This document shows positions 5,237-54,252 of a DNA stretch of 64,000 bases, piece after piece; the stretch's first letter is position 1, and each line of letters opens with the position of its first letter. The notes below the pieces were generated by a model, which had not been told where the DNA came from, did no database searches, and worked only from the letters and a program-made list of their open reading frames with translations. The stretch is from Candidatus Epulonipiscium viviparus (lineage in GTDB: Bacteria > Bacillota > Clostridia > Lachnospirales > Cellulosilyticaceae): assembly GCF_030708075.1 (NCBI RefSeq), contig NZ_CP117982.1:3092672-3156671 (forward strand), written 5' to 3'. The position numbers and the translations under genes were made by a program.

Positions 5237-5304
5237 TAGAATGTTTTAATTGGACCATGAAAGTATTTTAAGACAAAGAGAGTAGTTGTATCAAATTAAA
5301 AATT

Positions 5305-5333: not shown

Positions 5334-5339
5334 AGGCGT

Positions 5340-5563: not shown

Positions 5564-5565
5564 CA

Positions 5566-10793: not shown

Positions 10794-10837
10794 TTGCTGG
10801 CTTTCATGACACCATTGCTAGATTTCGTGACGCCGTT

Positions 10838-11177: not shown

Positions 11178-11222
11178 AACATCTGCCTTTTTCTTCCATT
11201 TAATCCTTTTCTTCTATTTAAT

Positions 11223-12394: not shown

Positions 12395-12459
12395 AACATC
12401 AGCCGCAAAGCAAATTCGAGATCTATATCCGCTTCAGATTTGTTATATATGCTACTCAT
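12391..12459 (-). pseudogene. Duplicated 5' end of the coiled-coil gene
   Basis: A 22-codon frame, MSSIYNKSEADIDLEFALRLML then TGA, whose stop overlaps the ATG of paralogue 3 (ATGA). It arose from a 65-bp tandem duplication of the gene start. Confidence 0.6.
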
Positions 12460-12504
12460 AACATCTGCCTTTTTCTTCCATTTAATCCTTTTCTTCTATT
12501 TAAT

Positions 12505-12905
12505 ATGACGCAGTTGCTGGTTTTCATGACACCATTGCTAGCTTTCATGACGCCGGTGCTGGCTTTCATGACGCCATTGCTAGCTTTCAAGACGCCGTTG
12601 CTAGTTTTCATGACGCAGTTTCTAGTTTTCATGACGCAGTTTCTGGCTTTCATGACACCGTTGCTAGCTTTCATGACACCATTGCTAGCTTTCGTGACGC
12701 CGTTGCTAGCTTTCATGACGCCGTTGCTAGATTTCATGACGCCGATGCTAGCTTTCAAGACGCCGTTGCTAGATTTCATGACGCCGATGCTAGTTTTTAT
12801 GACACCATTGCTGGCTTTCATGACACCATTGCTGGCTTTCATGACGCCGTTGCTGGGTTTCATGACACCATTGCTAGCTTTCAAGACGCAAGTTTCTGGT
12901 TTTAT
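12505..12905. repeat. 21-bp diverged units, block 4
   Basis: About 19 units of the same family with more sequence variety than the other blocks. In the ancestral frame TAG and CAG units are mixed. Confidence 0.75.
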
Positions 12906-33626: not shown

Positions 33627-33646
33627 GAAAACAAAGGAGAATGTTT

Positions 33647-34636: not shown

Positions 34637-34712
34637 TCGGCGTGAGCTGGCAAAATTGTTGCAGTTAAATATACGGAAAGAGGATTAGTATAAAAAGGAA
34701 AGGGCGTATATC

Positions 34713-35642
34713 ATGAAAAAAAAGCGAATCAATTTGAAGGAAAATAACCAATTATTGCTTTTAGCTTTGCCAGGATTGATATGGTTTATCGTTTTTAGCT
34801 ATTTGCCATTGATAGGTAATGTTATTGCGTTTAAAGATTTCAAGATACATAAAGGTGGTTTTTTAAATAGTTTGATACAAAGCGATTGGGTGGGGCTGGA
34901 TAATTTTGAGTTTTTGTTTTCGTCGAGTGATACATTACTAATGTTGCGCAATACAATAGGATACAATTTGTTATTTATAGTTTTGGGTACGGCGATACCG
35001 ATCATTATTGCTATCTCGATTAATGAGTTGCGCAACAAGAGAGCGGCTAAAGTTTATCAGAGCATTATGTTTTTTCCGTACTTTTTGTCGTGGGTAGTTG
35101 TAAGTTATTTTCTCTTTGCATTTTTGGATCCGTCTAAGGGCTTAATTAATGCAATACGCGAAGCGTTTGGGTATGAGTCAATTAACTTTTATTTAGAGCC
35201 CAAATATTGGCCATACTTTTTGGTTGCGCTAAATATTTGGAAAGGTCTCGGGTATGGCACTGTTTTGTATCTTGCCAGCATTGTGGGGATAGATAAAACG
35301 TATTACGAGGCAGCCATGCTAGATGGCGCTACCAAAATGCAACAAATTCGATACATCACTCTTCCTTTCTTAAAGCCGGTGGTCACTATTTTGGTAATAC
35401 TTTCTGTTAGTAAAATTTTGAACTCAGATTTTGGACTGTTTTATCAAGTGCCAAGAAATTCGGGTGCGCTATATAGCGTAACTCAAACAGTAGACACATT
35501 CGTTTATCGTGCGATGACCAGCCTGGGAGATATTGGCATGAGCTCCGCCGCTGCGTTGTTCCAATCCACTGTAGGTTGCGTATTGGTGTTGCTTAGCAAC
35601 TGGCTTATAACAAAGATTGACAAAGAAAATGCAATATTCTAA
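34713..35642 (+). CDS. Sugar ABC permease, LplB type
   Basis: 309 aa, about six membrane helices after a basic N-terminus. The cytoplasmic EAA loop YYEAAMLDGATKMQQIRYIT, near residue 210, binds the ATPase. It matches the LplB/YteP branch that imports complex oligosaccharides. It pairs with the next gene 21 nt downstream, and the two binding lipoproteins feed it. No ATPase gene lies in this operon. Confidence 0.88.
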   Translation: MKKKRINLKENNQLLLLALPGLIWFIVFSYLPLIGNVIAFKDFKIHKGGFLNSLIQSDWVGLDNFEFLFSSSDTLLMLRNTIGYNLLFIVLGTAIPIIIAISINELRNKRAAKVYQSIMFFPYFLSWVVVSYFLFAFLDPSKGLINAIREAFGYESINFYLEPKYWPYFLVALNIWKGLGYGTVLYLASIVGIDKTYYEAAMLDGATKMQQIRYITLPFLKPVVTILVILSVSKILNSDFGLFYQVPRNSGALYSVTQTVDTFVYRAMTSLGDIGMSSAAALFQSTVGCVLVLLSNWLITKIDKENAIF

Positions 35643-35663
35643 CAAAAGGAGGACGGACGAACA

Positions 35664-36572
35664 ATGGAAACCAAAACAGATTTCTCGCAAATAAGCAAGT
35701 CGAGCAATATAATGCTCCATATTATTTTTACGACACTAGCTCTGTTGATGCTTTTGCCAGTTGTTTTTGTAGTGATCATATCGTTTAGTAGCCAAAATTC
35801 TATTGCAGAAAATGGGTATAGCTTTTTTCCATCGGAGCTGAGCTTGGAGGCATATAAATATGTTTTTAGCAATGGGCAAAGCATCATGTCATCATTTTTA
35901 GTTTCTGTGATCGTAACGATTGGTGGTACGCTATTAGGAAGCATCTTGATGTCTACCTATGCCTATGTGCTATCTCGCAAAAACTTCAAATATGTAAAAT
36001 TTTTCACAGTCGTCGCATTGATCCCTATGTTATTTTCGGGTGGTATGGTAACGAACTATCTAATAATGACCACGCTTCTAGGTTTAAAAGATAGCTTATG
36101 GGCATTGATTTTGCCATTGCTAATGAGCTCATTTTATATATTTGTTCTAAAGGCATTTTTTCAAGGATTCGTGCCAGAAGCGATCATAGAATCAGCCAAA
36201 GTTGATGGAGCAACAGAGTGGCAAACTTTCACCAAAATCGTTATTCCGGTTGGCAAGCCGGGGATCGCCACTATTGCATTGTTTCTTACATTGGGATACT
36301 GGAACGACTGGTTTCAAGCGATGTTGTATATCGAAACACAAAGCAAAGTGCCTATTCAATATTTATTAATACGAATGGAAAATACAAGCAATTTTTTGAA
36401 GCAAATGTCAGCTTATATGGGTGCGAGCGTCGCGGAGATTGCAGCCAACATGCCGTCAGATACATTAAAAATGGCCGTGGTGGTAATTGTCGTATTGCCA
36501 ATAGCGTTGTCCTACCCATACTTTCAAAAATATTTTGTACAGGGGCTCACAGTTGGTGCGGTAAAAGAGTAA
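35664..36572 (+). CDS. Sugar ABC permease, LplC/YtcP type
   Basis: 302 aa, about six membrane helices. The EAA loop is PEAIIESAKVDGATEWQTF (near residue 172) and the C-terminal GLTVGAVKE ending is typical of the LplC/YtcP branch. It should form a heterodimer with the upstream permease. The ribosome site is AAAGGAGG, 15 nt before the ATG. Confidence 0.88.
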   Translation: METKTDFSQISKSSNIMLHIIFTTLALLMLLPVVFVVIISFSSQNSIAENGYSFFPSELSLEAYKYVFSNGQSIMSSFLVSVIVTIGGTLLGSILMSTYAYVLSRKNFKYVKFFTVVALIPMLFSGGMVTNYLIMTTLLGLKDSLWALILPLLMSSFYIFVLKAFFQGFVPEAIIESAKVDGATEWQTFTKIVIPVGKPGIATIALFLTLGYWNDWFQAMLYIETQSKVPIQYLLIRMENTSNFLKQMSAYMGASVAEIAANMPSDTLKMAVVVIVVLPIALSYPYFQKYFVQGLTVGAVKE

Positions 36573-36653
36573 GCTGCCGCCGCTGAACGGGTAATATTTT
36601 TCTGCTGTTAAAAATACTTTCATAATACACTTTTTACTAAAGGAGACAAAACG

Positions 36654-38066
36654 ATGAAAAAATATCTTTTCGCATGTATGGCACTATCTATGACAATGGT
36701 GGGGTGCTCCTCCACGGCTTCTTCCGATGATGTTATTCTAAAAGCTCATTTTATTGGTGCGCCACCTGCAGATGAACAAATAGTAGAAGATAAGCTTAAT
36801 GAGTATCTCAAGGCTAATTTTGGTTTTGGCTTAGAGATGGTATTTACAGATTTTGGTGACTTTGACCAAAAATCACAACTGATAATAAATTCTGGCGAAG
36901 ACTACGATATTATTTTTACTTGTGCCTGGGCAAATGACTACCAGAACAATGCGCTAAAGGGAGCCTTTTTAAACTTAACCCCATATCTTGAGTCGCCAGA
37001 GTATCAAGAGCTATACGAAACCATCGATGAAGGGTTTTGGGACGGAGCGCGAGTTAATGGCTCGATATATGCGGTTCCGACGCAAAAAGAAATTGCTCTG
37101 ATGCCGATGTATCAATTTAACAAGGCATATGTGGAGGCAGCAGATTTTGATTATCAGAATGTAACCAAACTTTCTGATGTGGAACCTTATTTGGAATTTG
37201 TGAAAAATACTTATCCAGAAGCATACCCCATGTTAGTGTTTGGCGATAGAATATTTGGAGGGACATATGATTATTTGCTAGGCTTTGAGTATCCCCTAGC
37301 TGTGGATAATAATGGAAAAGTTGTATATATGTATGATTTACCGGAAGTACGAGAGCATGTCATAACTATGGGAGAGTTTTTTGAGAAGGGTTATGTAAAC
37401 TTGGATGCGGCAACGCGAACTGGCAGACCTCAGCTTGGCGAAGCGTATGGGCTCGGCTTGGCATCAGGGCAACCTTTTGCCGAAGTTACTTGGAGCCTAG
37501 ATTCGGGATATGATATCGTCGCAGCAGAGCTGGCGAAACCAATTGTTACTACTAGCAGTACTCGCGGAGCTATGATGGGTATTAATCAAAACAGCGAACA
37601 TCCAGAAGAGGCTCTCGATTTGCTTCAAATTATAGCAACTGATTCAGAATTTCATAATCTATTGAATTATGGCATCGAGGGTGTGCATTACGAAAAAATT
37701 AGCGATACGCAAATCGAACGCACCGAAGCTGGACTGGGAAGATATGCGATTCCGTCATTTTCATTGGGCAACTTATTTAATACGTATACGCTAAAAGGTG
37801 AGCCAGAAAATAAATGGGAAGTATTTCAGCAAGAAAACGATGAAGCATATCGTTCGCCGTTACTGGGATTTGCTGCAAATATATCGGATCTCAAAACCGA
37901 GCTTGCAGCAATGAACAACCTTCGCGCTCAATACGAACCGCTTATTCAAACAGGCTCTGTGGATGTCGAAACTTATATAGAAGAATTTAGAACTAAGTTA
38001 AACGAAGTTGGTATGCAAAAAGTTATAGATCAAATGCAAGTTCAAGTGGATGATTTTTTGAAATAA
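36654..38066 (+). CDS. Sugar-binding lipoprotein 1 (DUF3502 type)
   Basis: 470 aa. A lipoprotein signal ends MTMVGC, so it is anchored outside the membrane. The body is a type 1 solute-binding protein. The C-terminal about 130 residues (LLGFAANISDLKTELAA... GSVDVETYIEEF) match the DUF3502 end common in LplA-like proteins. It presents oligosaccharide to the LplB/LplC permease encoded just upstream. Ribosome site AAAGGAGACAAAACG. It is closely related along its whole length to the next gene. Confidence 0.87.
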   Translation: MKKYLFACMALSMTMVGCSSTASSDDVILKAHFIGAPPADEQIVEDKLNEYLKANFGFGLEMVFTDFGDFDQKSQLIINSGEDYDIIFTCAWANDYQNNALKGAFLNLTPYLESPEYQELYETIDEGFWDGARVNGSIYAVPTQKEIALMPMYQFNKAYVEAADFDYQNVTKLSDVEPYLEFVKNTYPEAYPMLVFGDRIFGGTYDYLLGFEYPLAVDNNGKVVYMYDLPEVREHVITMGEFFEKGYVNLDAATRTGRPQLGEAYGLGLASGQPFAEVTWSLDSGYDIVAAELAKPIVTTSSTRGAMMGINQNSEHPEEALDLLQIIATDSEFHNLLNYGIEGVHYEKISDTQIERTEAGLGRYAIPSFSLGNLFNTYTLKGEPENKWEVFQQENDEAYRSPLLGFAANISDLKTELAAMNNLRAQYEPLIQTGSVDVETYIEEFRTKLNEVGMQKVIDQMQVQVDDFLK

Positions 38067-38082
38067 AAAGGAGTAGTGTTAT

Positions 38083-39516
38083 ATGAAATTGAAAAAATAC
38101 CTATTAACATTTTTGATAGCATCGATGTCTATTGTTGGCGTAGGATGTAGTAACTCAGATCAGGACAATGATGCCGTAACGTTGAAAGCTCACTTTATTG
38201 GAACCCCGCCGGCAGATCAGCAGCTAGTAGAAGATGCCGTAAATGAATACCTTTTGGATAATTTTGGTTTTGGCTTAGAAATCGTATTTACCGACTTTGG
38301 AGACTTTAATCAAAAATCAGCAATGATCATAAATACAGGCGAAGAATACGACATTATATTTACTTGCTCATGGGCAAATGATTACCAAGCAAATGTGTTA
38401 AAAGGGGCATTTTTGGATTTGAGTCCATATCTTGCGATGCCAGAATATCAAGACTTATACACTACTATCAACGAAGGCTTTTGGGAGGGTGCCAAAGTTA
38501 ACGGCTCAATATATGCAGTTCCGACGCAAAAGGAAATTGCCATGATGCCAATGTATCAGTTTAACAAGGCATATGTGGAAGCCGCAAATTTCGATTATCA
38601 AAATGTAGCTAAATTTTCAGATCTAGATCCATATTTAAAATTCGTAAAAGAAAACTATCCAGATGCGACGCCGCTCTTGCTATCGGACCAAAAGATATAT
38701 CGAGGCGAGTACGACTACGTATTAGGATTTGACTATCCGATTGCAGTAGACGCGAACGGAAAAGTTTCATATATGTATGAGCTACCAGATATCAAAGATT
38801 ATATTGTAACGGTGCGCGACTTTTTCTTGAAGGGATATGTCGATCCCGATGCGGCCACAAGCGACGGAGACATGGGCTCGGAAGCCGAAAACTGGGGCGT
38901 AAGTATAGCAGATGGGCAGCCGTTTGCTGAGGTTACTTGGAGCATAGACATTGGCTTCGATGTAGTAACGGCACCTCTGGCAAAACCAATTGTTACCACT
39001 AGCAGTACTCGCGGAGCTATGCATGGCATTAATATTAATAGCGAGCATCCGAGAGAAGCGCTCGACTTCCTACAGGCATTAAATGTAGATCCGAAGCTGC
39101 ATAACTTAATTAATTACGGCATCGAGGACGTGCATTATACAAAGGTTAATGATACGCAAATTCTTCGAACAGAGCAAGGATCTTCTAAGTATAGCGTACC
39201 ATCTTTTGCGCAAGGGAATCTATTTAATACCTATACTCTAGCAGGTGAGCCAGAAAACAAATGGGAAGTTTTTAAGAAAGAAAACGACAGTGCGATACGC
39301 TCGAACTTGCTAGGCTTTTCGGTAGATACATCGAACCTCAAAAACGAGATGGCGGCAATAAATAATTTGCGTGTACAATACGAGCCGCTTCTTCGAACTG
39401 GTTCGGTAGATGCAGAAGAGGGTATACAGGAGTATAAAGATAAGCTAAACCAGATAGGGTTACAAAAAGTGATAGATACCATTCAAACTCAGGTAGATGA
39501 ATTTCTGAAAAAATAG
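38083..39516 (+). CDS. Sugar-binding lipoprotein 2 (DUF3502 type)
   Basis: 477 aa, a tandem paralogue of lipoprotein 1 sharing long blocks such as VNGSIYAVPTQKEIA and KPIVTTSSTRGAM. The lipobox is VGVGC, with Gly rather than the usual Leu at -3. Divergence is concentrated in the middle (residues about 195-290), which would alter the binding cleft, so the two may bind different glycans through one permease. The gap from gene 1 is only 16 nt. Confidence 0.86.
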   Translation: MKLKKYLLTFLIASMSIVGVGCSNSDQDNDAVTLKAHFIGTPPADQQLVEDAVNEYLLDNFGFGLEIVFTDFGDFNQKSAMIINTGEEYDIIFTCSWANDYQANVLKGAFLDLSPYLAMPEYQDLYTTINEGFWEGAKVNGSIYAVPTQKEIAMMPMYQFNKAYVEAANFDYQNVAKFSDLDPYLKFVKENYPDATPLLLSDQKIYRGEYDYVLGFDYPIAVDANGKVSYMYELPDIKDYIVTVRDFFLKGYVDPDAATSDGDMGSEAENWGVSIADGQPFAEVTWSIDIGFDVVTAPLAKPIVTTSSTRGAMHGININSEHPREALDFLQALNVDPKLHNLINYGIEDVHYTKVNDTQILRTEQGSSKYSVPSFAQGNLFNTYTLAGEPENKWEVFKKENDSAIRSNLLGFSVDTSNLKNEMAAINNLRVQYEPLLRTGSVDAEEGIQEYKDKLNQIGLQKVIDTIQTQVDEFLKK

Positions 39517-39551
39517 CAATAATAATAAAGAAAAGAAAAGAGGTTTGATTT

Positions 39552-41885
39552 ATGAAAAAAATATATCTCATACACCACTCCCATACAGATATTGGATATA
39601 CGGACTTGCAAGAGAAAATTATCTATAACCACATTAATTATATCTATAAAGCAATGGACTTGATTTTGGCAGGCTACGAAAACGACACTGAAATGAAGCA
39701 TTTTAAATGGAATTGCGAATCTTATTTTGCCGTAGAGAGATTTTTGGATGATGCAACAGAGGCGCAACGAGTTCAGTTTTTTGATCTGGTAAAAAAAGGC
39801 AATATAGGCTTGTCTGCAACATATCTAAACTTCACCGATTTGGTGGATAAGTATATACTAGATTCCAAGACCAAGCAAATGGTTCAAATTTGTAAAAATT
39901 ATGATACATCTATTAAAGTAGCCATGAACGCAGATATAAACGGGATTCCATTAGGCGCGTTAGATGTATTTTTGGAGAACGGAATAGAGTTTTTATTCAC
40001 CAACGTCCATTGCCATCATGGCATGTATCCGCTATATAAAAATCAGGTGCCATACTATTGGGAGCGCAACGGCAAAAAGTTACTAGTCTGGAGCGGCGAG
40101 CACTACCATCTTAGCAATAGCTTTGGGCTTGTGCCAACTAAACCAGAAAGCGCGGATCTCGTTCAGGTTGAGAAAGCGTACGCGGCAATCATGAAATATA
40201 TAGCTCAATGCGATGCCAATGGATATAAATACGACTTTATTCCGCTATCGATATCGGGAGTATTTAGCGACAACGCGCCTCCTAATGCTATAATAATGGA
40301 AATGATCAACGCGTTTAACTCGTATACAAATGAAATTCAGCTCGAAATGCTAACGATTGAAGAGCTCTATAGTAAGATAGCAGATAAGCTGATCGACGTT
40401 CCAACATATAGCGGGGACTTAACCGACTGGTGGTCACACGGGGTAGGAAGCACTCCATACGCGGTAAAGCATGCCAAAGAGGCCGTTAGAATTCATAGAA
40501 TTTGCCAAGCCCTGGATGCCAGCCGCGAGGTGCTTACCGACCAGAGACTGCAAAACGTCGAGAACAACCTGCTGCTATTTGCAGAGCATACTTGGGGGCA
40601 TTCATCCACAATTAGTAATCCATACGATACAATGGTCCAAAACCTCGATATCAGAAATATCAGCTACGCATCAAAGGCACACGAAAGCGCATCAGAAAAC
40701 CTAGTCCGTATACTGCATAAAAAAGGCGACATCTTGCAATATTATGGCAGATCTGGCAAAGTTAAAGCCATTAATCCGTCAAACGAGGAAGTTACACAAG
40801 TGGTATCATTCTATATTGAAGTGTGGGGCTTTGGCGATATAAACGTCGTATGCAATGGAGTCAAGATGGTAACTCAAATCGGTGCGCATCCAAGAGGCAT
40901 CGAAATAAAATTTGTTGACACATTTGCCGCGCATGAAGAAAAAATTTACACTTACCAAGAAATCGAGAAAGCTGAACATGCGGTAAACTCAGGAATTGCA
41001 CACATCGGTTCAGAGCGCATCCAAGATATTGTAAATGAGTACGACCCGATAATTTGTACTTTGCCGTATCAGCTAGAAAACGAGTGGTTTAAAATCAGCT
41101 ACGAAAGCGGTCTTGGGGTAACATCATTTTATAATAAGGTAGAAAATTGTGAGATGCTAGTAGACGGTGCCAAGTTTTTTGAGCCTATCTACGAAGTGAG
41201 TGCAACAAACACAAATGCCTATGAGGAAAGACGTCTACTAGGCAGAAACATCCGAGGTTTGCATGCCAAAAAATATCATGGCAGACTAGAGAATATCCAG
41301 TTGCTAGCCCATGGCAAAGTATATACAGAAATTGAGCTTACGTATAAATTAGAGGGCACCAAATTTAGCTCGATAATAATCAGATTCTATCACCAGATTC
41401 CTAAAATAGACTTCAAGTATAAAGTCGCAAAGACCCTGGTATTAGATCCCGAAAGCTTATATTTACCGTTAGCGCTAAACATACCGGCTAAAAAAGCATA
41501 CGTAGATAAAGCCGATGCGACATTTAGACCGGGCGTTGAGCAAATACCAGGAACGTGCATGGAATACTACTTGATCGATAATGGAATAATATACCAAAAT
41601 CAGCACAGTAGCATATATATTAATACCCTTGATGCTCCTCTTATATATATGGGGCAATTGAAATCGCATCCAATCACGCTGTGTAATAATGAAGAAACAA
41701 ATAACGATAGACCGATATATTCTTGGATTATGAATAACCTCTGGGAAACTAATTTCAAGATTAATTTATCGGGCATCACCGAGTATTGCTATAGCCTAGG
41801 ACTTGTGTTAGATCGAGATATTTCAAAAACGCACGAAGCCATGAAAGATAATGCAATGGGTATTACAACTTTTATTATTGAATAG
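39552..41885 (+). CDS. GH38-like alpha-mannosidase
   Basis: 777 aa, no signal peptide. The N-terminus HHSHTDIGYTDLQEK is the zinc-binding H-x-H-x-D-x-G motif of GH38. MNADINGIPLGALD near residue 125 carries the expected nucleophile Asp, and AEHTWGHSS near residue 345 another metal-binding His. The C-terminal half is the beta-sandwich part of these enzymes. It probably trims alpha-mannosyl residues from imported glycans in the cytoplasm, alongside GH130. The ribosome site is AAGAGG. Distant GH38-like families with other substrates exist, so substrate confidence is moderate. Confidence 0.78.
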   Translation: MKKIYLIHHSHTDIGYTDLQEKIIYNHINYIYKAMDLILAGYENDTEMKHFKWNCESYFAVERFLDDATEAQRVQFFDLVKKGNIGLSATYLNFTDLVDKYILDSKTKQMVQICKNYDTSIKVAMNADINGIPLGALDVFLENGIEFLFTNVHCHHGMYPLYKNQVPYYWERNGKKLLVWSGEHYHLSNSFGLVPTKPESADLVQVEKAYAAIMKYIAQCDANGYKYDFIPLSISGVFSDNAPPNAIIMEMINAFNSYTNEIQLEMLTIEELYSKIADKLIDVPTYSGDLTDWWSHGVGSTPYAVKHAKEAVRIHRICQALDASREVLTDQRLQNVENNLLLFAEHTWGHSSTISNPYDTMVQNLDIRNISYASKAHESASENLVRILHKKGDILQYYGRSGKVKAINPSNEEVTQVVSFYIEVWGFGDINVVCNGVKMVTQIGAHPRGIEIKFVDTFAAHEEKIYTYQEIEKAEHAVNSGIAHIGSERIQDIVNEYDPIICTLPYQLENEWFKISYESGLGVTSFYNKVENCEMLVDGAKFFEPIYEVSATNTNAYEERRLLGRNIRGLHAKKYHGRLENIQLLAHGKVYTEIELTYKLEGTKFSSIIIRFYHQIPKIDFKYKVAKTLVLDPESLYLPLALNIPAKKAYVDKADATFRPGVEQIPGTCMEYYLIDNGIIYQNQHSSIYINTLDAPLIYMGQLKSHPITLCNNEETNNDRPIYSWIMNNLWETNFKINLSGITEYCYSLGLVLDRDISKTHEAMKDNAMGITTFIIE

Positions 41886-41900
41886 AAATGGCGCATAATT

Positions 41901-42899
41901 ATGAATGAAAAAAAAGTGATTCTACAAGACATTGCCGATAGATTATCGATTAGTAAAGTAACAGTATCAAAAGCTCTTAGCAATAAAGAAGGTGTCAGTG
42001 ACGAATTGCGAAAAGTCATACACACAACGGCAAAAGACATGGGATATATGCCTATTAAAAATAAGAATTATGAGAGCGGTAAAATAGCAGTGCTCGTTCG
42101 AGAAAGATATCTTCAAAACGATTTATACCAAACTTTCTATATGGATTTTTATCAACAGTTGGTTAGCAAATTAATGCATGCTGATTTTTTGTGCAGCTTA
42201 ATGCCGGTAAAGCATAGCGAAACGAACATTGATAAAGTTATAGATAATTTGCTTGCCAACAAAATTTCGGACGTAATTATTATGGGGCCATTAAAAGACG
42301 TTTTTATCGAGAAGCTGCGCAAAAGTAATTTGAATATACTATTTTTGGATTACTATTTATCTGATCATCCCGAGGCCTGCGTTGCGGTAGATAATTTTTA
42401 CGGAGCATACGAAATCACCAAATACTTGATCGACAGGGGTCACCGTAAGATAGGATTTGTGGGTACCATCCGCAGCACAGCAAGTATACTCGATAGATAT
42501 CTTGGCTACCTAAAAGCCTTATACGAAAAGGGACTAAATCCCAGCATTCTTGTAGATGACCGAGATGCGAATGGCAAGGAGAAAAATATATACCTACCAA
42601 ATGACTTGCCGACAGCCTTTGTATGTAACTGTGGAGAGACGGCTTTTAAAGTTGCCATGGAACTCGAGGCTCAAGACCTTAAAATACCAGCAGATATTTC
42701 GATCGTAACATTTGATGATGACAGCTTTTCTAAAATATGTAAACCGCCTTTAACCACCATGAAATTTGATATAGAAAGCATGGTCGATAAAGTGATACAG
42801 TTAATTACACGAACCCAAGAACAAGAAGAATGCGATGGATTTAGGACTCTTGTCGCCGGAAACATAATAGAGCGCCAATCCGTACGAACTCTTTTCTGA
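41901..42899 (+). CDS. LacI-family transcriptional regulator
   Basis: 332 aa. The N-terminal helix-turn-helix and hinge helix (LQDIADRLSISKVTVSKALS, then GVSDELRKVI) are typical LacI. A periplasmic-binding-like ligand domain follows, with RGHRKIGFVG near residue 178 and ISIVTFDDDSF near 265. Located 15 nt after the mannosidase as the last gene, it probably represses this operon and responds to an imported glycan or breakdown product. Confidence 0.88.
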   Translation: MNEKKVILQDIADRLSISKVTVSKALSNKEGVSDELRKVIHTTAKDMGYMPIKNKNYESGKIAVLVRERYLQNDLYQTFYMDFYQQLVSKLMHADFLCSLMPVKHSETNIDKVIDNLLANKISDVIIMGPLKDVFIEKLRKSNLNILFLDYYLSDHPEACVAVDNFYGAYEITKYLIDRGHRKIGFVGTIRSTASILDRYLGYLKALYEKGLNPSILVDDRDANGKEKNIYLPNDLPTAFVCNCGETAFKVAMELEAQDLKIPADISIVTFDDDSFSKICKPPLTTMKFDIESMVDKVIQLITRTQEQEECDGFRTLVAGNIIERQSVRTLF

Positions 42900-43935: not shown

Positions 43936-43962
43936 ATTTCCCCCATTGACAGGGGGAAAATT
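43936..43962. terminator. Bidirectional terminator between convergent genes
   Basis: TTTCCCCC/GGGGGAAA stem with flanking A and T runs, between the ADP-ribosylglycohydrolase and the convergent sulfatase. Confidence 0.75.
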
Positions 43963-45434
43963 TACTCTTCATCTTCGGCTTCAGCCTTCAATTTATACAT
44001 CTCATCTTTTAACTTTACGATTAAATCGGCATACTCGGGGTTGTCGTATACGTTGTTTAATTCGTGAGGATCCTTTTTTAAATCAAACAATTCCCATGCC
44101 GCTTCTCGATACTCATCTATAGTACCACTTTTTCCCAATGCCTGCGCGTAATAGTAAATCAGCTTATAGTCGAGGGTGCGAATTCCATAGTGAGACCAAA
44201 TATTGTGGTGCGCAAGGTGCATCCAGTATCTATAATACATTGCAGTCTGAATTGCCGGTGCGTTTTCGTCTTCTAATATTCGCCTAAACGACTTTCCTTG
44301 CATATCATCTGGAATCGGCACTCCCGCAAAGTCTAGAAATGTTTCGGCAAAATCTAAATTAAGAATCATCTTATCGCTAACTCTCCCCGCTTTGATCGCG
44401 CGCGGATATTTAATTACAAACGGCATCCTCAAAGATTCCTCATACATAAATCTCTTGTCATACCACCCGTGATCTCCCAAGAAAAATCCCTGGTCAGAAG
44501 TATATACTACAATCGTATCTTCCGCAATGCCCTCTTCGTTCAGGCAATCTAGCAGCTGCCCGATTCCATCGTCTACGCTGGCAACGCATCGTAAATAGTC
44601 TTTGATATATCGTTGGTATTTGAAATTTTTGAGCTCGGCATAGCTACTAAAACTAACTGGTACGCCCGTTTCTTCCGGAGTCAGCGTATATCCCTCTAAC
44701 GAATCTGGTGGCGGAATTTTGTCCATAGGTCTTTTAGTCGGAGGAGGGACAAGTTTTAAATCTCGATACATAAAATCGTTATCAATTCTCATTTCTGCTT
44801 CACGAGCCGCGTCGCAACGGGTGGCGTAATCATCGTCAAAAGTTTCGGGTTGCAGTATTTCTTCATCTTTATATAGATCAGCATATTTGGCACTCACGGT
44901 CCACGGTCTATGCGGCGCTTTGTGGTGGCACATCAACATAAAAGGCTTACTTTTGTCGCGATCCTTAATAAAGTTAAGAGACATATCAGTAATAATATCT
45001 GTGGCGTATCCTTTAAAAATTTTATCCTCGCCCTGCTCTCTCATCTTAGGGTCAAAATACTCGCCCTGTCCGTGAAGAACACAATAATAGTCAAATCCAG
45101 TAGGGTCCGCATATCCTCCCTCCCCAAGATGCCACTTACCAATTATGCCGGTTTGGTATCCCGCTTTTTGTAGCAACTTCGGAAACGTCTGCTGTCTACC
45201 ATCAAATTCGTCATTTAGCGTAATTACCCCATTAAGATGGCTGTGTTTTCCAGTAAGAATGACAGCTCTACTGGGTGCACAAATAGAGTTAGTACAAAAA
45301 CAATTATCAAATCTCATTCCCTCATTGGCAATGCGGTCCATATTGGGCGTCACATTGATCTTGCTACCATAACAGCTCATCGAGTGAGACGCATGGTCAT
45401 CAGTCATTATAAAAACGATATTAGGTTGGTTCAC
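43962..45434 (-). CDS. Sulfatase 1 (formylglycine type)
   Basis: 490 aa from a GTG start. Metal-binding Asp12-Asp13 lie in IVFIMTDDH. Cys52 in CAPSRAVILTG is the C-x-P-S-R site converted to formylglycine. GKWHLGEGG and TSDQGFFLGDHGW are further family S1 motifs. It removes sulfate esters from glycans, and the layout resembles N-acetylglucosamine- or iduronate-type sulfatases. There is no signal peptide. The frame continues 19 codons upstream to ATG 45491, but GGAAAGGA precedes the GTG. A TATAAT at 45490-45495 would also place the mRNA start after that ATG. An anaerobe needs a radical-SAM maturase for Cys-type sulfatases; none is in this window. Confidence 0.85.
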   Translation of the reverse strand: MNQPNIVFIMTDDHASHSMSCYGSKINVTPNMDRIANEGMRFDNCFCTNSICAPSRAVILTGKHSHLNGVITLNDEFDGRQQTFPKLLQKAGYQTGIIGKWHLGEGGYADPTGFDYYCVLHGQGEYFDPKMREQGEDKIFKGYATDIITDMSLNFIKDRDKSKPFMLMCHHKAPHRPWTVSAKYADLYKDEEILQPETFDDDYATRCDAAREAEMRIDNDFMYRDLKLVPPPTKRPMDKIPPPDSLEGYTLTPEETGVPVSFSSYAELKNFKYQRYIKDYLRCVASVDDGIGQLLDCLNEEGIAEDTIVVYTSDQGFFLGDHGWYDKRFMYEESLRMPFVIKYPRAIKAGRVSDKMILNLDFAETFLDFAGVPIPDDMQGKSFRRILEDENAPAIQTAMYYRYWMHLAHHNIWSHYGIRTLDYKLIYYYAQALGKSGTIDEYREAAWELFDLKKDPHELNNVYDNPEYADLIVKLKDEMYKLKAEAEDEE

Positions 45435-45489
45435 AATTATAATTTCCTTTCCGGGGATATTAAAGGCGTCTAATAATGATGACCACCTC

Positions 45490-45495
45490 ATTATA
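45490..45495 (-). promoter_or_regulatory. -10 box of sulfatase 1
   Basis: TATAAT on the minus strand, about 55 nt before the GTG start. No good -35 was found. Confidence 0.4.
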
Positions 45496-45608: not shown

Positions 45609-48600
45609 TTATACATATCCTACAACCAATTTACCATCCTTAGTCCTGCCTATTAGCTTGGCAACGAAATCGCATGGGTCAGCGGTCAAGTAGGTATCTC
45701 CGGCGAACGTTACAACAGTGCCCTCGGCATGTTTTCGAATAGCAATAGCCCTTGCACCTTTACCAAAATTTACCGCTTTTGCTGCACCGAATATAAAAGA
45801 TTCCATTATAAAATCATTAATATCAGTGGTCTTAGTTGCAATGGCGGTGATTTCGTCTTCGAACGCATAAGCGTCACCTTCAATCGCGTTATCCGATGCA
45901 TCACTTCCGATCACATTATCCGATGAGTCACTTCCGATCACATTAGCCGATGAGTCACTTTCGACCGCGTTATCCGATGAGTCACTTTCGACCGCGTTAG
46001 CCGATACGTCACTTCTGACCGCGTTATCCGATGAGTCACTTCCGATCACATTAGCCGATGCATCACTTCTGACCGCGTTAGCCGATGCGTCACTTCCGAT
46101 CACATTAGCCGATGAGTCACTTTCGATCACATTAGCCGATGCGTCACGTCCGACCGCATTAGTCGATGCGTCATCTTTGATCGCATTAGCAGAATGCGTC
46201 GCCTTCGATCACATTAGCCGATGCGTCACTTCCGATCACATTAGCAGATGCATCACTTCCGATCACATTAGCCGATGAGTCACTTCTGATCCACGTTATC
46301 CGATGAGTCACTTCCGATCACATTATCCGATGAGTCACTTCCGATCACATTAGCCGATGAGTCACGTCCGATCACGTTAGCCGATGCGTCACGTCCGATC
46401 ACATTAGCCGATGAGTCACTTCCGACCGCGTTAGCCGATGAGTCACTTCCGACCGCATTAGCCGATGAGTCACTTCCGACCGCATTAGCCGATGCGTCAT
46501 CGTTGATCGCATTAGCCGATGCGATCACTTCTGATCGCATTATCCGATGAGTCATCCGATTACAGTTAGCCGATACATCACTTCCGATCCATACTTAGCC
46601 GATTAGTCACTACTGATCACATTAGCCGATGAATCACTTCTGACCGCGTTAGCCGATGCGTCATTTTCGATAGCGTGAGCCGATTCGGCATCTTTGATAT
46701 GCGTTAGCCGATGCGTCACGTCCGACCGCGTTAGCAGGTTCATAAGCTACATTTGCATCAGAAAAGGCTTTGAACAACTCATGTAGGCTTGACTTACGAG
46801 TTCCATTGCCTGGTCGTCGCTAATACGAGTAGAACTTTTGATCGTATTAGCAGATTCGTCGACATGGATGTATAATTGGAAGATTCATCGACATTGATAG
46901 TGTTATCAGATACGTCATCGTTGATCGCATTAGCAGAATCATCATCTTCGATAGCGTCAGCCGATGCGTCACGTCCGAACCGCGTTATCCGATGCGTCAC
47001 TTCCGATCACATTATCCGATGCGTTACCTTCTGATCGCGTGAGCCGATGACGTCACTTTCGATCACATTAGCCGATGAGTCACTTCCGATCACATTATCC
47101 GATGCGTCACTTCCGATCACATTAGCCGATGAGTCACTTCCGACCGCGTTAGCCGATGAGTCACTTCCGATCACATTAGCCGATGCGTCACGTCCGACCG
47201 CGTTAGCCGATGCGTCACTTCCGATCGCATTAGCCGATGCGTCACTTCCGATCACATTAGCCGATGAGTCACTTCCGACCGCGTTAGCCGATGCATCACT
47301 TCCGATCACATTAGCCGATGCGTCACCTTCGATCGCGTTAGCCGATCATCACTTCCGACCGCATTAGCCGATGAGTCACTTCCGATCACATTAGCCGATG
47401 AGTCACGTCCGATCACATTAGCCGATGCGTCACTTCCGACCGCGTTAGCCGATGCGTCACTTTCGATCACATTAGCCGATGAGTCACGTCCGACCGCGTT
47501 AGCAGGTTCATAAGCTACATTTGCATCAGAAAAGGCTTTGAACAACTCATGTAGGGCTTGACTTGCGAGTTCCATTGCCTGGTCGTCGGTAATACGAGTA
47601 GAACTTTTGATCGTATTAGCAGATTCGTCGACATGGATTATATTGGAAGATTCATCGACATTGATCGTGTTATCAGATACGTCATCGTTGATCGTATTAG
47701 CAGAATCATCATCTTCGATAGCGTGAGCTGATACGGCATCTTTGATAGCGTGAGCTGATTCGTCATCGTTGATCGCATTAGCCGATGCATCATCTTTGAT
47801 AGCGTGAGCCGATGCGTCATCGTTGATCGTATTAGCAGAATCATCATCTTCGATAGCGTGAGCCGATGAGTCATCTTTGATCACATTGGCGGATTCGTCA
47901 TCTTTGATAGCGTTAGCCGATGAGTGGCCTTCGATCGTATTAGCAGAATTGTCGCCTTTGATAGCGTGAGCCGATGAGTGGCCGTTGATCGTATTAGCTG
48001 ATGAGTCGTTTTCGATAGCGTGAGCCGATACGTCACCTTTGAACGCGTTAGCCGATACGTCATCTTTGATAGCGTGAGCTGATGCATCATCTTTGATAGC
48101 GTTAGCCGGTGCGTCATCTTTGATAGCGGGAGCTGATTCGTCATCGTTGATCGCATTAGCCGATACGTCGCCTTCGAACGCGTGAGCCGATGAGTCACCT
48201 TCAATCGCGTGAGCCGATGCGTCATCGTTGATCGCATTAGCCGGTGCGTCACGTCCGATCACATTAGCCGATGAGTCGTTTTCGATAGCGTGAGCCGATA
48301 CGTCATCGTTGATCGTATTAGCAGATACGTCGCCTTCGATTGCGTGAGCCGATGCGTCATCGTTGATCGCATTAGCTGATGAGTCGTTTTCGATAGCGTG
48401 AGCAGATGCGTCATTTTCGATAGCGTGAGCCGATACGTCGCCTTCGATTGCGTGAGCCGATGCGTCATCTTCGATCGCATTAGCCGATGCGTCACGTCCG
48501 ACCGCGTTAGCCGATGAGTCATCTTCGATAGCGTGAGCTGATGCGTCATCTTTGATAGCGTGAGCCGATACGTCATCGTTGATCGCATTAGCAGAATCGT

Positions 48601-49535
48601 CGCCTTTGATAGCGTGAGCCGATGCGTCATCGTTGATCGCATTAGCGGATTTGGCATCTTTGATAGCGTGAGCCGATACGTCGTTTTTGATCGCGTTATC
48701 CGATGAGTCATCTTCGATAGCGTGAGCCGATGCGTCATCGTTGATCGTATTAGCCGATGCGTCATCTTCGATAGCGTTAGCCGATACGTCATCGTTGATC
48801 GCATTAGCCGATCCGTCATTTTTGATAGCGTGAGCCGATACGTCATCTTTGATAGCGTGAGCAGAATCGTCACCTTTGATAGCGTGAGCCGATGAGTCAT
48901 CTTCGATCGTATTAGCAGATGAGTCGTTTTCGATAGCGTGAGCCGATGCGGCATCTTCGATCGTATTAGCAGAATCGTCGCCTTCGATCACATTAGCCGA
49001 TGAGTCACCTTCGATAGCGTGAGCCGATGAGTCATCTTCGATAGCGTGAGCTGATGCGTCATCTTCGATAGCGTGAGCAGATTCGGCATCGTTGATCGCA
49101 TTAGCCGATGAGTTGTTTTCGATAGCGTGAGCCGATGCGTCATCGTTGATCGTATTAGCAGAATCATCATCTTCGATAGCGTGAGCCGATGCGTCATCGT
49201 TGATCGCATTAGCCGATGCATCATCTTTGATAGCGTGAGCCGATGAGTCACCTTCGAACGCGTTAGCCGATACGTCATCGTTGATCGCATTAGCCGATGA
49301 GTCGTTTTCGATAGCGTGAGCCGATGAGTCACCTTCGAACGCGTTAGCCGATCCGTCATCTTTGATCGTATTAGCAGATTTGTCATCGTTGATCACATTG
49401 GCGGATTTGGCATCGTTGATCGTATTAGCCGATGCATCATCTTTGATAGCGTGAGCTGATGCGTCATCTTCTATCGTATTAGCAGATTCGTCGACATGGA
49501 TTATATTGGAAGATCCATCGACATTGATCGTGTTA
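45609..49535 (-). pseudogene. Frameshifted continuation of the propeller/nonapeptide gene
   Basis: This continues the gene at 49536-52628 in the same direction. Two one-base deletions near 49541-49553 shift the frame, after which it stays open down to 47306 without a start codon of its own. Further one-base indels (about 47346, 46190, 46290, 46515, 46560) break the rest into pieces. A non-repetitive module (KSSTRITDDQAMELASQALH..., about 47500-47660) interrupts the repeats and recurs with indels at about 46735-46890. The last piece (45609-46130) ends in a distinct C-terminal domain of about 90 residues (FIFGAAKAVNFGKGARAIAI...GKLVVGYV). Either a decaying gene or repeat-related assembly errors in one gene of about 7 kb. 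Confidence 0.65.
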
Positions 49536-50515
49536 TCAGATAGTCATCGTTGACGTATTATCAGATGCGTCATCTTCGATAGCGTTAGCCGATGCGTCAC
49601 CTTCAATCGTGTGAGCCGATACGTCGCCTTCGAACGCGTGAGTCGATGAGTCATCTTCGATCGTATTAGCCGATACGTCGCCTTCGACCGCGTTATCCGA
49701 TGCATCATCTTCGATAGCGTGAGCAGATTCGGCATCGTTGATCGTCCGAGCAGAATCGTCATCTTTGATAGCGTGAGCCGATGCGTCATCGTTGATCGCA
49801 TTAGCTGATGAGTCGTTTTCGATAGCGTGAGCAGATGCGTCATTTTCGATAGCGTGAGCCGATACGTCGCCGTTAATCGCATTAGCTGATGAGTCGTTTT
49901 CGATAGCGTGAGCCGATACATCGCCGTTAATCGCATTAGCCGATGAGTCACTTCCGACCGCGTGAGCCGATGCATCACTTCTGACCGCGTTATCCGATGA
50001 GTCACGTCCGATCACATTAGCCGATGCGTCATCGTTGATCGCATTAGCAGAATCGTCGCCTTTGATAGCGTTAGCCGATACGTCGCCTTTGATCGTATTA
50101 GCAGAATCGTCGTCGTTGATCGTATTAGCTGATGAGTCGTTTTCGAACGCGTGAGTCGATGAGTGGTCTTCGATCGTATTAGCAGAATCGTCGCCTTCGA
50201 TAGCGTGAGCCGATGCATCATCTTTGATAGCGTGAGCCGATGAGTCATCTTCGATCGTATTAGCAGATGAGTCGTTTTCGATAGCGTGAGCCGATGCGTC
50301 ATCTTCGATAGCGTTAGCCGATTCGGCATCATTGATCGTATTAGCAGAATCGTCGCCTTCGATAGCGTGAGCTGATTCGTCATCGTTGATCGTATTAGCC
50401 GATGCGTCATCTTTGATAGCGTGAGCCGATGCGTCATCTTCGATAGTGTGAGCTGATTCGTCATCGTTGATCGTATTAGCCGGTGCGTTATCTTTGATTT
50501 CTGTTGCCGCAAGCT
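45880..50515 (-). repeat. 27-bp / nonapeptide repeat tract (about 170 units)
   Basis: Tandem 27-bp units encode D-D-x-S-A-[NH]-[AT]-[IV]-x (for example DDASAHAIE) or, in the 3' third, S-D-x-S-A-N-x-[IV]-G. The central S-A-[NH] core and an Asp next to it hardly vary, while flanking residues alternate N, D, E, K and G. Regular spacing of small, polar and one branched hydrophobic residue suggests a beta-solenoid or an extended acidic stalk; this is inference. Confidence 0.9.
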
Positions 50516-52628
50516 CGGGAGAGTCAGTTTCTACTAACGTATCTTCATCTAATATGAGGATTTCTGTTTCGCTGAGGCGTCTTAGCCTGCGAGGGATTAT
50601 TAATGGCAAAATTTGGTTTTTAGAGCTATGATTGTCGTTCGGATAGTCATTGGCTTTGTTGATGTCGATCACGGCCATTGACAGGTGCGTGGCTCTGCCG
50701 TATTTGTCTACTAGCACGTTGGGGCGCTCTATCTTATGCCATAATGTTCGTACACCGTTTTCATATACTGTGGATGTCGATGTGTATGCGAAGCCGTCTT
50801 CGTAGAACCAGTTGATCCCATCTGCAGATCGCAAGTATATGGCCCTAAAATCGATAAATCCATTTATTATCATATGGTATTGCAACTCGTCTTTCCACAT
50901 TACGGGATCTTCGTATACAGACTTGCGATACCGTTCGGGCACTGTTGTGTTCTCTTGGATTGTGCCTGTTAGCACTTCGTAGGGCCCCAAAATTCCTGAA
51001 GTGCTTTTGATCATATTGCCAGCTTTGCTAACAAAGAGCAAGGACCCGTCTTCTAGCTCAACTCCCGATAGATTTCTTTCGTATCGATATGCGCGCTGCG
51101 AGTCGTTGTGGTTTACTTTCATTTCGCCTTCGTATTTCCAAGGACCACTAATGGATTTGGAGCTTAGAAGGATTGGCGTAAAGTTTACTAGTGTGTATAG
51201 CAAATAACTGCCATCGTTTCGCAAAATTATATTTGTGTTATGTCCCGACGAATTTAAATTTTCGACGCCAGCGGTGTAGGTATATGCTTTTTCTCGAGAG
51301 ACTTTGTATGGCCCCAGGGGATCGGTTGAAGTTGCATATGCAGTAGTAGAAGACGGCCAGTCCCAATGACCTCGGCGAGTATTTTCTGGCCATCGAACAA
51401 TATTGATATGATATTTGCCGGCCTCTTCGACAATTCTGCCGCCCCAGTATGAGTATTCGTTATCTTCTATGCCGTTATTTTTATCGCGAGGTAATACATA
51501 TGAGGCGCCCCAAATTCCAGCATTTACCATAGTTTTTGTTACTGGGAGGGGCTGAATTAGATCGCTAAAAGATGCGCCTGGAATGGCCGAAACTATTGCA
51601 GTAGCGGGAGCCGAGAGAGGGCTTTCGTTGCCGCAAAAATCTATGGCGCTGACAGAATAGGTGTTTGTAGATCCTTTGATAGGAAGCATGTCCACAAATT
51701 TCTGATAGTTACTATGATGGTAGTGTAGTAATGAGAGCTCCTTTGTGATTGAGTCCGCGCGATATATATTGTAAAACTCTGTATCGTTATTGGCATCGTC
51801 CCAGCTTAAGGTAACTTCCCATTTTGAGCCAGTGGCGACGAGGTTGGTAGGGGCAATAGAGATGCCATCATCTGGCTTGATTCCGATGACGGGATATGCT
51901 GGAGATGCCGCGTCGTCATGGCTAAGTCGAACCGAGTAGTAGTACGTTTTGCCGCAAACAGCTGTTGTATCGATAAACGCCCCCACCTGCTCCGTGGCAA
52001 TCTTTACATATCCCGTACGTTTCTGATTACTTCTATATATATCACACGGTGCGGCCTGATTGAAAGACAGTGCAATGCCATCTGCCGTATCTGTAGCGGC
52101 AACATCCCAAGTGGCAGTCGTTTCCGAAATTGCAACATCGACCCACTCCACATAAACATTGATATCGAAGTTTGAGTACAAAGTCAATTTTACCTTTGGA
52201 TTTTTGAGAGTTATATCAGCCGCGTATTCTCCCTCGTATTCTGCAGCGGGAGTGGGAGCACGGGAAATTTCAATTTTATCAGCCAGAACAACTTCGATAT
52301 TGTTGCATACCAAAGATAACGATACATAGGCATCGCACTCATATTCAGCTTGCGCTGCAAATCTCCATTTGATAGTCGCAGTTTTGGAAATTGTATCGGC
52401 TATAGTTGCCTTGGTGGTGTATGTGGCAATAGCATTTCCGCCACTCGATAGCCTATCAAATGAGAGCCCCATAGCAAGGTTTCCCGATACAATATTTCCG
52501 AGCCAAAAATCAGATTGTCTTAATAACCTCCAACTTGGCCTTCCTTTTTCGTTAAAATCTCCGTCAAATAAACTTTTATGAGGCATATTAAAGCCCACTA
52601 ATATAACATCGGTTGGTGCGATTCTCAT
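49536..52628 (-). CDS. Beta-propeller glycosidase-like protein with Fn3 and nonapeptide repeats
   Basis: 1030 aa as read. Residues 1-170: beta-rich domain, possibly carbohydrate-binding (DGDFNEKGRPSWRLL). About 170-350: two fibronectin type III domains (TLSWDDANNDTEFYNIYRA is clear). About 355-700: a propeller like GH43/GH117-type enzymes (YWGGRIVEEAGKYHINIVRW, SVYEDPVMWKDELQYHMI, IERPNVLVD). From 705: nonapeptide repeats. No signal peptide is visible, which is odd for an Fn3-bearing glycan enzyme. ATG 52628 has AAGGAG 8 nt upstream. The frame ends at a two-base deficit, so the native protein may continue (see 45609-49535). Flanked by two sulfatases, it may act on sulfated glycans. Confidence 0.7.
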   Translation of the reverse strand: MRIAPTDVILVGFNMPHKSLFDGDFNEKGRPSWRLLRQSDFWLGNIVSGNLAMGLSFDRLSSGGNAIATYTTKATIADTISKTATIKWRFAAQAEYECDAYVSLSLVCNNIEVVLADKIEISRAPTPAAEYEGEYAADITLKNPKVKLTLYSNFDINVYVEWVDVAISETTATWDVAATDTADGIALSFNQAAPCDIYRSNQKRTGYVKIATEQVGAFIDTTAVCGKTYYYSVRLSHDDAASPAYPVIGIKPDDGISIAPTNLVATGSKWEVTLSWDDANNDTEFYNIYRADSITKELSLLHYHHSNYQKFVDMLPIKGSTNTYSVSAIDFCGNESPLSAPATAIVSAIPGASFSDLIQPLPVTKTMVNAGIWGASYVLPRDKNNGIEDNEYSYWGGRIVEEAGKYHINIVRWPENTRRGHWDWPSSTTAYATSTDPLGPYKVSREKAYTYTAGVENLNSSGHNTNIILRNDGSYLLYTLVNFTPILLSSKSISGPWKYEGEMKVNHNDSQRAYRYERNLSGVELEDGSLLFVSKAGNMIKSTSGILGPYEVLTGTIQENTTVPERYRKSVYEDPVMWKDELQYHMIINGFIDFRAIYLRSADGINWFYEDGFAYTSTSTVYENGVRTLWHKIERPNVLVDKYGRATHLSMAVIDINKANDYPNDNHSSKNQILPLIIPRRLRRLSETEILILDEDTLVETDSPELAATEIKDNAPANTINDDESAHTIEDDASAHAIKDDASANTINDDESAHAIEGDDSANTINDAESANAIEDDASAHAIENDSSANTIEDDSSAHAIKDDASAHAIEGDDSANTIEDHSSTHAFENDSSANTINDDDSANTIKGDVSANAIKGDDSANAINDDASANVIGRDSSDNAVRSDASAHAVGSDSSANAINGDVSAHAIENDSSANAINGDVSAHAIENDASAHAIENDSSANAINDDASAHAIKDDDSARTINDAESAHAIEDDASDNAVEGDVSANTIEDDSSTHAFEGDVSAHTIEGDASANAIEDDASDNTSTMTI

Positions 52629-52794: not shown

Positions 52795-54252
52795 ATGAAA
52801 CCTAATGTAATTATAATTTATGCAGATGATTTAGGGTACGGAGATTTATCATGCTATGGGGCAGAGGATATAAAGACCCCGAATATCGATGCGTTGGCAG
52901 AAGAGGGGGTTCGGTTTCAGCAAGCATACTCGACTTCTTCGGTGTGTACACCAGCCAGATACGGACTTCTAACAGGGCAATACCCATTTTCAAATAATCA
53001 GATTAGAATTTTGCCAGGAAATGCGCAGCATTGCTTAATATCTAAAGAACAAATTACGCTTCCGAAAATGTTTAAGGCAGCAGAGTATAATACTGCGGTT
53101 ATAGGCAAATGGCACTTGGGGCTTGGCGATGGAGCAGTCGATTGGAACGGATATATCGAGCACACTCCAAATGATATCGGATTTGATTATTCGTTTATAT
53201 TTCCGGGCACAAATGACAGAGTACCAACAGTGTTTGTAAAAAATCATCACGTGGACAACTTAGATGCGGACGATCCGATGACGGTTTTTTATGGAGCAGA
53301 AGACAAATGTTCGTTTATTGATCAGATAGACACATATAAAAAAGATCCCGACAAGTTGAGAATTACATCTACTCACGGGCACTCAAATATGATAGTAAAT
53401 GGCGTAGGACGCATTGGGTATATGAAAGGCGGAAAGGCAGCGATCTGGAAAGACGAAGAGTTGACTGATACTTTTTTAACACAGGCAAAAGAGTTTATGG
53501 ACTCTAGTGATCAGGCACCGTTTTTCTTATACTTTGCCGCGCATCAGCCACACGTTCCAAGATTGGCAAATCCAAAATTTGTGGGAGCCACAGAGATGGG
53601 GCCTCGAGGCGATGTGATAGCAGAATTTGATTACACTGTTGGAGAAATCGTGGCTTATCTAAAGGAGAAAAATTTATTAGAGGATACGATAATAATAATT
53701 TCTAGCGATAACGGACCAGTATTTGACGATGGCTATAACGACCACGCATTTGAGCTTGCAGGAAAGCATAAGCCAGCTGGACCATTTAGAGCCGGAAAGT
53801 ATAGTAAATACGAAGGCGGAGTGCGTATTCCTTTTATATTGTCTTGGAAGGGACATACAGCGAAGACGATTTCTCCTGCCATAGTGAGCCAAGTCGACCT
53901 ACTGGCCTCATTTGCCAATCTGATAAATGTGGATGTTGCAGATGTAGACAGTCTCAACATGCTAAATGCATTTATGGGCAAAGATAGCATTGGTAGAAGC
54001 GAAGTGATGTTCGAAAATAATGATAAAGTGGTAATGTTACGTCAAAATCAATGGGTATTTTTGCCTAGGAGTGCTCAGGTGTATGAAGATATTCCGAATC
54101 AACGCGACTTTGGCAATGGCCCTGAGGATCAACTATTCAATTTGGACTTTGATATAAAGCAACAAGACAATGTCGCAAAGGCATATCCTACAATTGTAAA
54201 TTCTATGCGCCAAACATTAGCCGAGTATGGATTTTTGAAAGCAACACTATAA
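52795..54252 (+). CDS. Sulfatase 2 (arylsulfatase-like, formylglycine type)
   Basis: 485 aa. YADDLGYGDLSCYG holds the metal Asp pair (residues 11-12). Cys51 in CTPARYGLLTG is the formylglycine site. GKWHLGLG and SSDNGPVFDDGYNDH complete the S1 motifs. It resembles arylsulfatase A-like enzymes that hydrolyse sulfated sugars. No signal peptide, so intracellular action is likely. Ribosome site AGAGGAG. It shares a transcript with the URO-D-like gene 19 nt downstream. The last about 100 bp of this gene recur inverted inside the pullulanase gene at 58932-59063. Confidence 0.87.
   Translation: MKPNVIIIYADDLGYGDLSCYGAEDIKTPNIDALAEEGVRFQQAYSTSSVCTPARYGLLTGQYPFSNNQIRILPGNAQHCLISKEQITLPKMFKAAEYNTAVIGKWHLGLGDGAVDWNGYIEHTPNDIGFDYSFIFPGTNDRVPTVFVKNHHVDNLDADDPMTVFYGAEDKCSFIDQIDTYKKDPDKLRITSTHGHSNMIVNGVGRIGYMKGGKAAIWKDEELTDTFLTQAKEFMDSSDQAPFFLYFAAHQPHVPRLANPKFVGATEMGPRGDVIAEFDYTVGEIVAYLKEKNLLEDTIIIISSDNGPVFDDGYNDHAFELAGKHKPAGPFRAGKYSKYEGGVRIPFILSWKGHTAKTISPAIVSQVDLLASFANLINVDVADVDSLNMLNAFMGKDSIGRSEVMFENNDKVVMLRQNQWVFLPRSAQVYEDIPNQRDFGNGPEDQLFNLDFDIKQQDNVAKAYPTIVNSMRQTLAEYGFLKATL

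Follow-up and report, generated by a model that had tools for sequence, protein, structure and literature searches.

An in-frame tandem repeat tract in the linker of an apparently cytosolic enzyme of Candidatus Epulonipiscium viviparus

Does a long tandem array that is scattered over three reading frames belong to a single protein, and if so, what kind of tract is it and how did it arise? The question is raised by a 64,000-nt stretch (the window; positions 3,092,672–3,156,671) of the 3.28-Mb single-contig genome of Candidatus Epulonipiscium viviparus (NZ_CP117982.1, assembly GCF_030708075.1). Tandem Repeats Finder (TRF) placed 170.1 copies of a 27-bp unit at positions 45871–50488 of the window, and a strict motif recovered 149 units, which occupy three frames of the minus strand and are interrupted by at least nine frame switches; an earlier note on this DNA had likewise counted about 170 nonapeptide repeats in 4.6 kb. 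The array, of about 4.6 kb, separates an enzyme of ∼700 aa from a C-terminal domain of 84 aa. A minus-strand open reading frame (ORF) of 1030 aa (49536–52628) contains the enzyme and the first repeats; beyond this ORF the array switches to other frames, and its end is in frame with the C-terminal domain, which terminates at a stop codon at 45609. We consider it likely that the array is the grown linker of a cytosolic enzyme, expanded by in-frame tandem duplication, kept open and tolerated. This account rests on repeat-free homologues, synteny, an open frame in an independent draft, turnover of the units and an excess of arrays with periods that are multiples of three.

The comparison assembly was the draft NZ_ABEQ01000015.3 ('Candidatus Epulonipiscium viviparus strain N.t. 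morphotype B'), built from ∼8-fold paired-end Sanger shotgun reads (PMC3416734). A single open frame of 1,770 codons (L037, positions 3–5312) covers the proposed propeller half of the enzyme, about 150 units, two non-repeat inserts and the C-terminal domain to its stop codon. The draft array contained no frame switch; a single apparent switch at this locus lies upstream of it and reflects a match by chance. When the first 486 residues are taken from the window, the joined protein would be ∼2,256 aa, in keeping with the earlier expectation that joining the frames would give a single long protein with repeats. The flanks of the two loci are nearly the same, with 689/690, 267/271 and 1484/1500 positions identical (98.5–99.9%), and the tract is 4,352 bp long in the draft against 4,601 bp in the window. 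The draft contains 106 distinct units and the window 114, of which 29 are common to both, and exact identity extends over 132 nt at most, although assembly error on either side may explain part of these differences.

Homologues that lack the tract indicate where it came from. The enzyme belongs to a family with at least four full-length homologues that are 57–64% identical. In a repeat-free paralogue from the same genome (2,792,031–2,794,145; L012), which is 61% identical, the enzyme runs directly into the C-terminal domain, and this end is 52% identical to that of the window protein over 77 aa. A syntenic orthologue in the metagenome-assembled genome (MAG) 'Epulopiscium sp. AS2M-Bin001' is 65% identical and has the C-terminal domain but no repeats; the same sulfatases, the same 410-aa neighbour and the same GGDEF-type gene accompany it. 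Because the paralogue and the orthologue join both parts directly, we read the tract as a lineage-specific linker expansion rather than an added module; the enzyme and the C-terminal domain are one ancestral protein. The C-terminal domain itself (45609..45870, minus strand, with the stop codon), which runs from (AYA)FEDEITAIATKTTDINDFIMESFIFGAAKAVNFGKG to LVVGYV, was found in both homologues of the MAG. The domain that the earlier note had pointed out is real, but it represents the ancestral C-terminus of this protein rather than a separate module.

Two further homologues carry arrays of their own. The second homologue of the MAG contains a different, 42-bp repeat within its N-terminal domain and retains the C-terminal domain. 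A third E. viviparus homologue, found in the draft, contains a 33-bp repeat (ITPTDAPADDA) at the site corresponding to the 42-bp array. Because the 33-bp repeat is similar to the adjacent native sequence (EEITPTDAPANEEYSGFY), this array seems to have arisen by in-place duplication of native coding sequence. One enzyme family has in this way three different arrays at two sites. The third E. viviparus homologue, which corresponds to the N-terminal and Fn3 part and lies on draft contig C73 (L044:7025–10924), bears 94 copies of its 33-bp unit as well as repeated copies of the domain; in a nearby ORF at 1229–2194 (L044), a propeller-like enzyme start is joined to that domain.

Arrays were then counted with the same TRF thresholds throughout, in stretches taken at regular steps and not at random. 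They made up 4.14% of 381 kb sampled from the single-contig genome, with all 15 of 15 periods divisible by three, and 7.1% of a 368-kb draft sample (∼6.3% without the tract's own contig), with 13/14 periods divisible by three. The corresponding values for MAG AS2M-Bin001 were 2.59% of 306 kb and 21/30, whereas arrays accounted for only 0.12%, 0.20% and 0.05% of the samples from three relatives in the same family and order. By a perfect-repeat criterion similar to that of a study of Borg elements, the share was 0.34% in the single-contig genome sample and 0–0.04% in relatives outside the genus. Other arrays in the genome also code for D/S/A/V-rich peptides, and the size of the window array is far above chance and far above the content of the related genomes. 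In-gene repeat growth is common across the E. viviparus genome and rare in the relatives sampled. The searched passages of the 2012 and 2021 Epulopiscium genome papers do not discuss tandem repeats; the paper on the single-contig genome lay outside that search and may mention them. In MAG AS2M-Bin001, in-frame arrays were also seen in housekeeping genes, namely in a NusB-like protein with a 12-aa repeat tail (L022:2380–3108) and in the middle of a MutL-like protein with 12-aa repeats (L085:2311–5022), both named by eye.

The enzyme body (residues 1–710; 50499..52628, minus strand) consists of an N-terminal beta-sandwich-like region, two Fn3-like domains (approximately residues 178–348) and an all-beta half proposed as a propeller. 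The family profile matched solved structures in their Fn3 regions (5z06, E=5e-4; 3mpc, E=0.03), and the best-folded part of the enzyme model also matched Fn3-like structures. No Pfam family reached threshold with the enzyme body, the PD40 propeller matches were weak (E 0.025–0.16), and AlphaFold prediction from three sequences gave a mean predicted local distance difference test (pLDDT) score of 47, with only the Fn3 region usable and the propeller half not resolved. Of the earlier description as a glycosidase-like propeller with Fn3 domains, the Fn3 part stands, while 'glycosidase-like propeller' is only weakly supported as a label for the other half. A search of phage records with the enzyme gave no match, and in a phylum-wide profile search with the family essentially the Fn3 part alone matched outside the genus.

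The neighbouring genes bear on where the protein acts. A downstream sulfatase (Sulfatase plus SGSH_C; 43962..45491, minus strand) and an upstream divergent sulfatase (52795..54252, plus strand) flank the gene, and both are syntenic in MAG AS2M-Bin001. By Pfam, the plus-strand genes at 33641..42899 encode functions in sugar import and breakdown: GH130, two ATP-binding cassette (ABC) permeases, two DUF3502 proteins, one of which matches solute-binding families, a GH38-like enzyme and a LacI regulator. Inspection by eye, without a signal-peptide predictor, revealed no signal peptide in the enzyme, its homologues or either sulfatase, all of which begin directly with a domain. The best reading of these sequences is that the enzyme is cytosolic and acts on imported, possibly sulfated, oligosaccharides. 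Unconventional export or an intracellular filament had been proposed to account for the missing signal peptide. Because the repeat-free homologues and the sulfatases also show none and sugar ABC importers are encoded nearby, no special export is needed, and we found no evidence of a filament.

Elsewhere in the window, a 448-bp unit is repeated ∼8.7 times at 2185–6122, where there is no long ORF and the DNA is apparently non-coding. Interleaved repeats of 83 and 115 bp, neither a multiple of three, occupy 8056–10057 and are not spanned by a long ORF. Neither of the two ORFs at 13313–22603 (3,096 aa) and 23321–33418 (3,365 aa) has a Pfam match.

We next consider the nature of the tract. The array (45871..50498, minus strand, as delimited by TRF and the count of units and frames) codes for D-x-S-A-[N/H]-x-[I/V]-x-x, in three frames here and in one open frame in the draft. 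Position counts over the open draft allele gave the unit D-x-S-A-[N/H]-x-[I/V/F]-x-x, with D in 144/151 units, S in 150/151, N or H in 151/151 and I, V or F in 148/151. D1, S3, N/H5 and I/V7 are nearly constant, which agrees with the motif DDxSA[NH]xIx read earlier. The units differ from each other at a mean of 7.2 of 27 positions, i.e. they are not perfect or nearly perfect repeats. Two copies of a non-repeat insert, (K)SSTRITDDQAMELASQALHELFKAFSDANVAYEP, were identified by translation within the window array at 47490..47605 and 46715..46826 (minus strand), the second with small indels in this assembly; the draft allele also contains two, and its second copy has no indel. The tract consists of 14.5% D, 20% S, 19% A and 11% N and has a net charge of about −217 over 1,454 residues. 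Pfam and NCBIfam searches matched no family, the tract profile that the earlier note had called for found no match among solved chains, and a search of viral contigs found no relative. The GGxGxD motif does not occur in the units of the draft array, and the view that the tract is neither RTX by motif nor a recognised repeat family is upheld.

One alternative is that the tract folds as an RTX-like calcium beta-roll and serves as a rigid stalk for the enzyme. D1, S3, N/H5 and I7 are spaced in the same way as the G, G, D and L of the RTX nonapeptide. AlphaFold2 prediction of a repeat block, as had been proposed earlier, produced a roll in which each unit contributes one short strand, and Foldseek matched this model best to two RTX domains (E=1.6e-4 and 0.0096). 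The mean pLDDT was 65, with three of the five models at 34–42 and disagreement among the models, and VIA-align matched the model to many unrelated beta-solenoids (tailspikes, epimerases, pertactin), which shows only a common arrangement. The roll is no more than a lead because AlphaFold2 is known to yield unrealistic beta-solenoids for repeats (PMC11795689). The composition of the tract favours disorder. With neither the GGxGxD motif nor a sequence match to solved chains, we regard a folded RTX-like stalk as improbable. Cytosolic calcium is normally low, which also counts against a calcium roll.

The same degree of doubt applies to the proposal that the tract is an adaptive charge or size tag, which would slow diffusion or place the enzyme near the importers. 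Its strong negative charge, the D/S/A/V-rich peptides of other arrays in the genome and the giant polyploid cells of this organism (PMC8245194) fit a tag, but a paralogue in the same cell does without the tract and the composition could simply follow from the seed sequence.

A slightly less probable alternative is that the frameshifts in the window are real, such that a decaying or phase-variable allele would make only the enzyme and ∼320 residues of repeats. The first break (frame 0 to 1; 49519..49571, minus strand) closes the 1030-aa ORF and eight further breaks lie within 46172..47350 (minus strand). These switches occur in the sole single-contig assembly, the neighbouring unique genes of which are intact, and so the assembly is not poor everywhere. 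None of the breaks is present in the draft array, however, and after each of them the new frame takes up the same peptide motif again, with the net frame from the enzyme to the C-terminal domain kept. A second 27-bp array (DDDDSA[DVN]VA; ∼1,836,113 of the single-contig genome, L013; draft L043:1331–5743) shows the same contrast: 10 switches interrupt it in the single-contig genome, whereas the draft has it free of switches within a 1,470-aa ORF that opens with a signal-like N-terminus. In addition, ten-N gaps adjoin two other arrays of the single-contig assembly (L014:1663–1672 and L055:1503–1512). The simplest reading is that the frame switches in the window are probably assembly or consensus errors within arrays. 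Confirmed frameshifts had been named as grounds for giving up the earlier interpretation; the Sanger allele is open throughout. A 21-bp array at 10802–12903 of the window, which is split into several ORFs, was dropped as a frameshift test, as it matches two places in the draft.

The 106 distinct units of the draft array contain no stop in ∼1,450 codons. Random substitutions would make a stop in 3.1% of cases, and at least 105 changes would give ∼3 stops without constraint, which is a rough bound. The open frame of the array appears to be under selection, whereas the exact peptide does not. Several points weigh against linker growth under a maintained frame. The unit-to-unit ratio of nonsynonymous to synonymous differences (pN/pS) is 0.78 in the coding frame compared to 0.58–0.93 in the other frames, which gives no signal of amino-acid constraint. 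The draft contig starts at enzyme residue 487, with the first 486 residues off the contig; at 8-fold coverage its array may be partly collapsed or misjoined, leaving exact length and order unsure; and the frameshifts of the single-contig genome could be real in that population. The pN/pS value would also suit a DNA-level repeat without a coding role that is in frame by chance, but this is very improbable given the 15/15 and 13/14 sampled arrays with unit lengths divisible by three, the stop-free draft array and the in-frame junctions of both ends with conserved coding sequence.

According to the favoured account, the protein would be a cytosolic enzyme of a carbohydrate locus, from a small Epulopiscium family with a beta-sandwich, two Fn3 domains, a probable propeller and a small C-terminal domain. 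Tandem duplication of a 27-bp coding unit would have expanded the linker between the propeller and the C-terminal domain to ∼1,450 strongly acidic residues. Growth and turnover may rest on slippage or on unequal recombination, whether from repeat to repeat or across the many genome copies of the cell; polyploidy and recombination have been reported for Epulopiscium (PMC8245194). Selection would hold the frame open and the folded parts intact while tolerating much change within the array, and most of the frameshifts in the window would stem from consensus or assembly errors in an array that resists polishing. Within the cytosol, the tract would presumably be a polyanionic spacer that is extended, flexible or weakly ordered. 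A broader proposal, which we put forward only tentatively, is that an ongoing genome-wide process in Epulopiscium converts the linkers, loops and tails of ordinary proteins into repeat tracts that are long, in frame and often acidic, that extreme polyploidy and recombination permit it, and that some tracts are functional in the giant cell by limiting diffusion or tuning interactions.

The locus exemplifies how far repeats can grow within genes of a bacterial chromosome, in enzymes that appear cytosolic and for which repeat-free homologues provide before-and-after pairs. It offers a natural system for the origin of coding minisatellites and the birth of disordered regions, and it connects extreme polyploidy with coding-repeat growth, both unusual traits of this organism, in a testable manner. 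It is also a warning that repeat genes in this single-contig genome are broken by likely errors.

Among known systems, the closest kind is the coding tandem repeats of Borg elements; by analogy, the tract works like a Borg amino acid tandem repeat (aaTR), although we do not file it as a member. Borg aaTRs have in-ORF units divisible by three, are missing from most homologues and originated independently at different sites; they change fast between close relatives, often occur in otherwise ordinary enzymes and require curation of assemblies at the repeats (PMC9879509). They are mostly perfect short arrays on archaeal extrachromosomal elements and, counted as perfect repeats, account for 0.62% of the genome (Schoelmerich et al. 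2023, PMC9879509). The 27-bp unit is likewise divisible by three and lies within an ORF, the tract is missing from the paralogue and the syntenic orthologue, and it differs between closely related genomes, with assembly quality as a caveat to the small number of shared units. Unlike Borg aaTRs, the Epulopiscium arrays are long, imperfect and located on a bacterial chromosome, and the protein that bears the tract has no evident signal peptide. Against the Borg share, the Epulopiscium sample has 0.34% by the similar perfect criterion and ∼4% by TRF. The tract shares with RTX repeats (GGxGxDxUx) the nine-residue period, the spacing of conserved positions and a predicted roll that resembles RTX domains. 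It differs in that the glycines are replaced by D and S and the aspartate by N/H, with no sequence match and no sign of secretion; where RTX proteins have a type I secretion signal, the C-terminus here is an ancestral domain common to repeat-free homologues. Bacterial surface proteins with intragenic variable-number tandem repeats are typically surface-exposed. A palindromic amphipathic repeat is described for Mollicutes and others (PMC2996958). Like the repeats of surface proteins, the tract is a coding minisatellite of variable copy number, but it resides in an apparently cytosolic enzyme and comprises ∼150 units.

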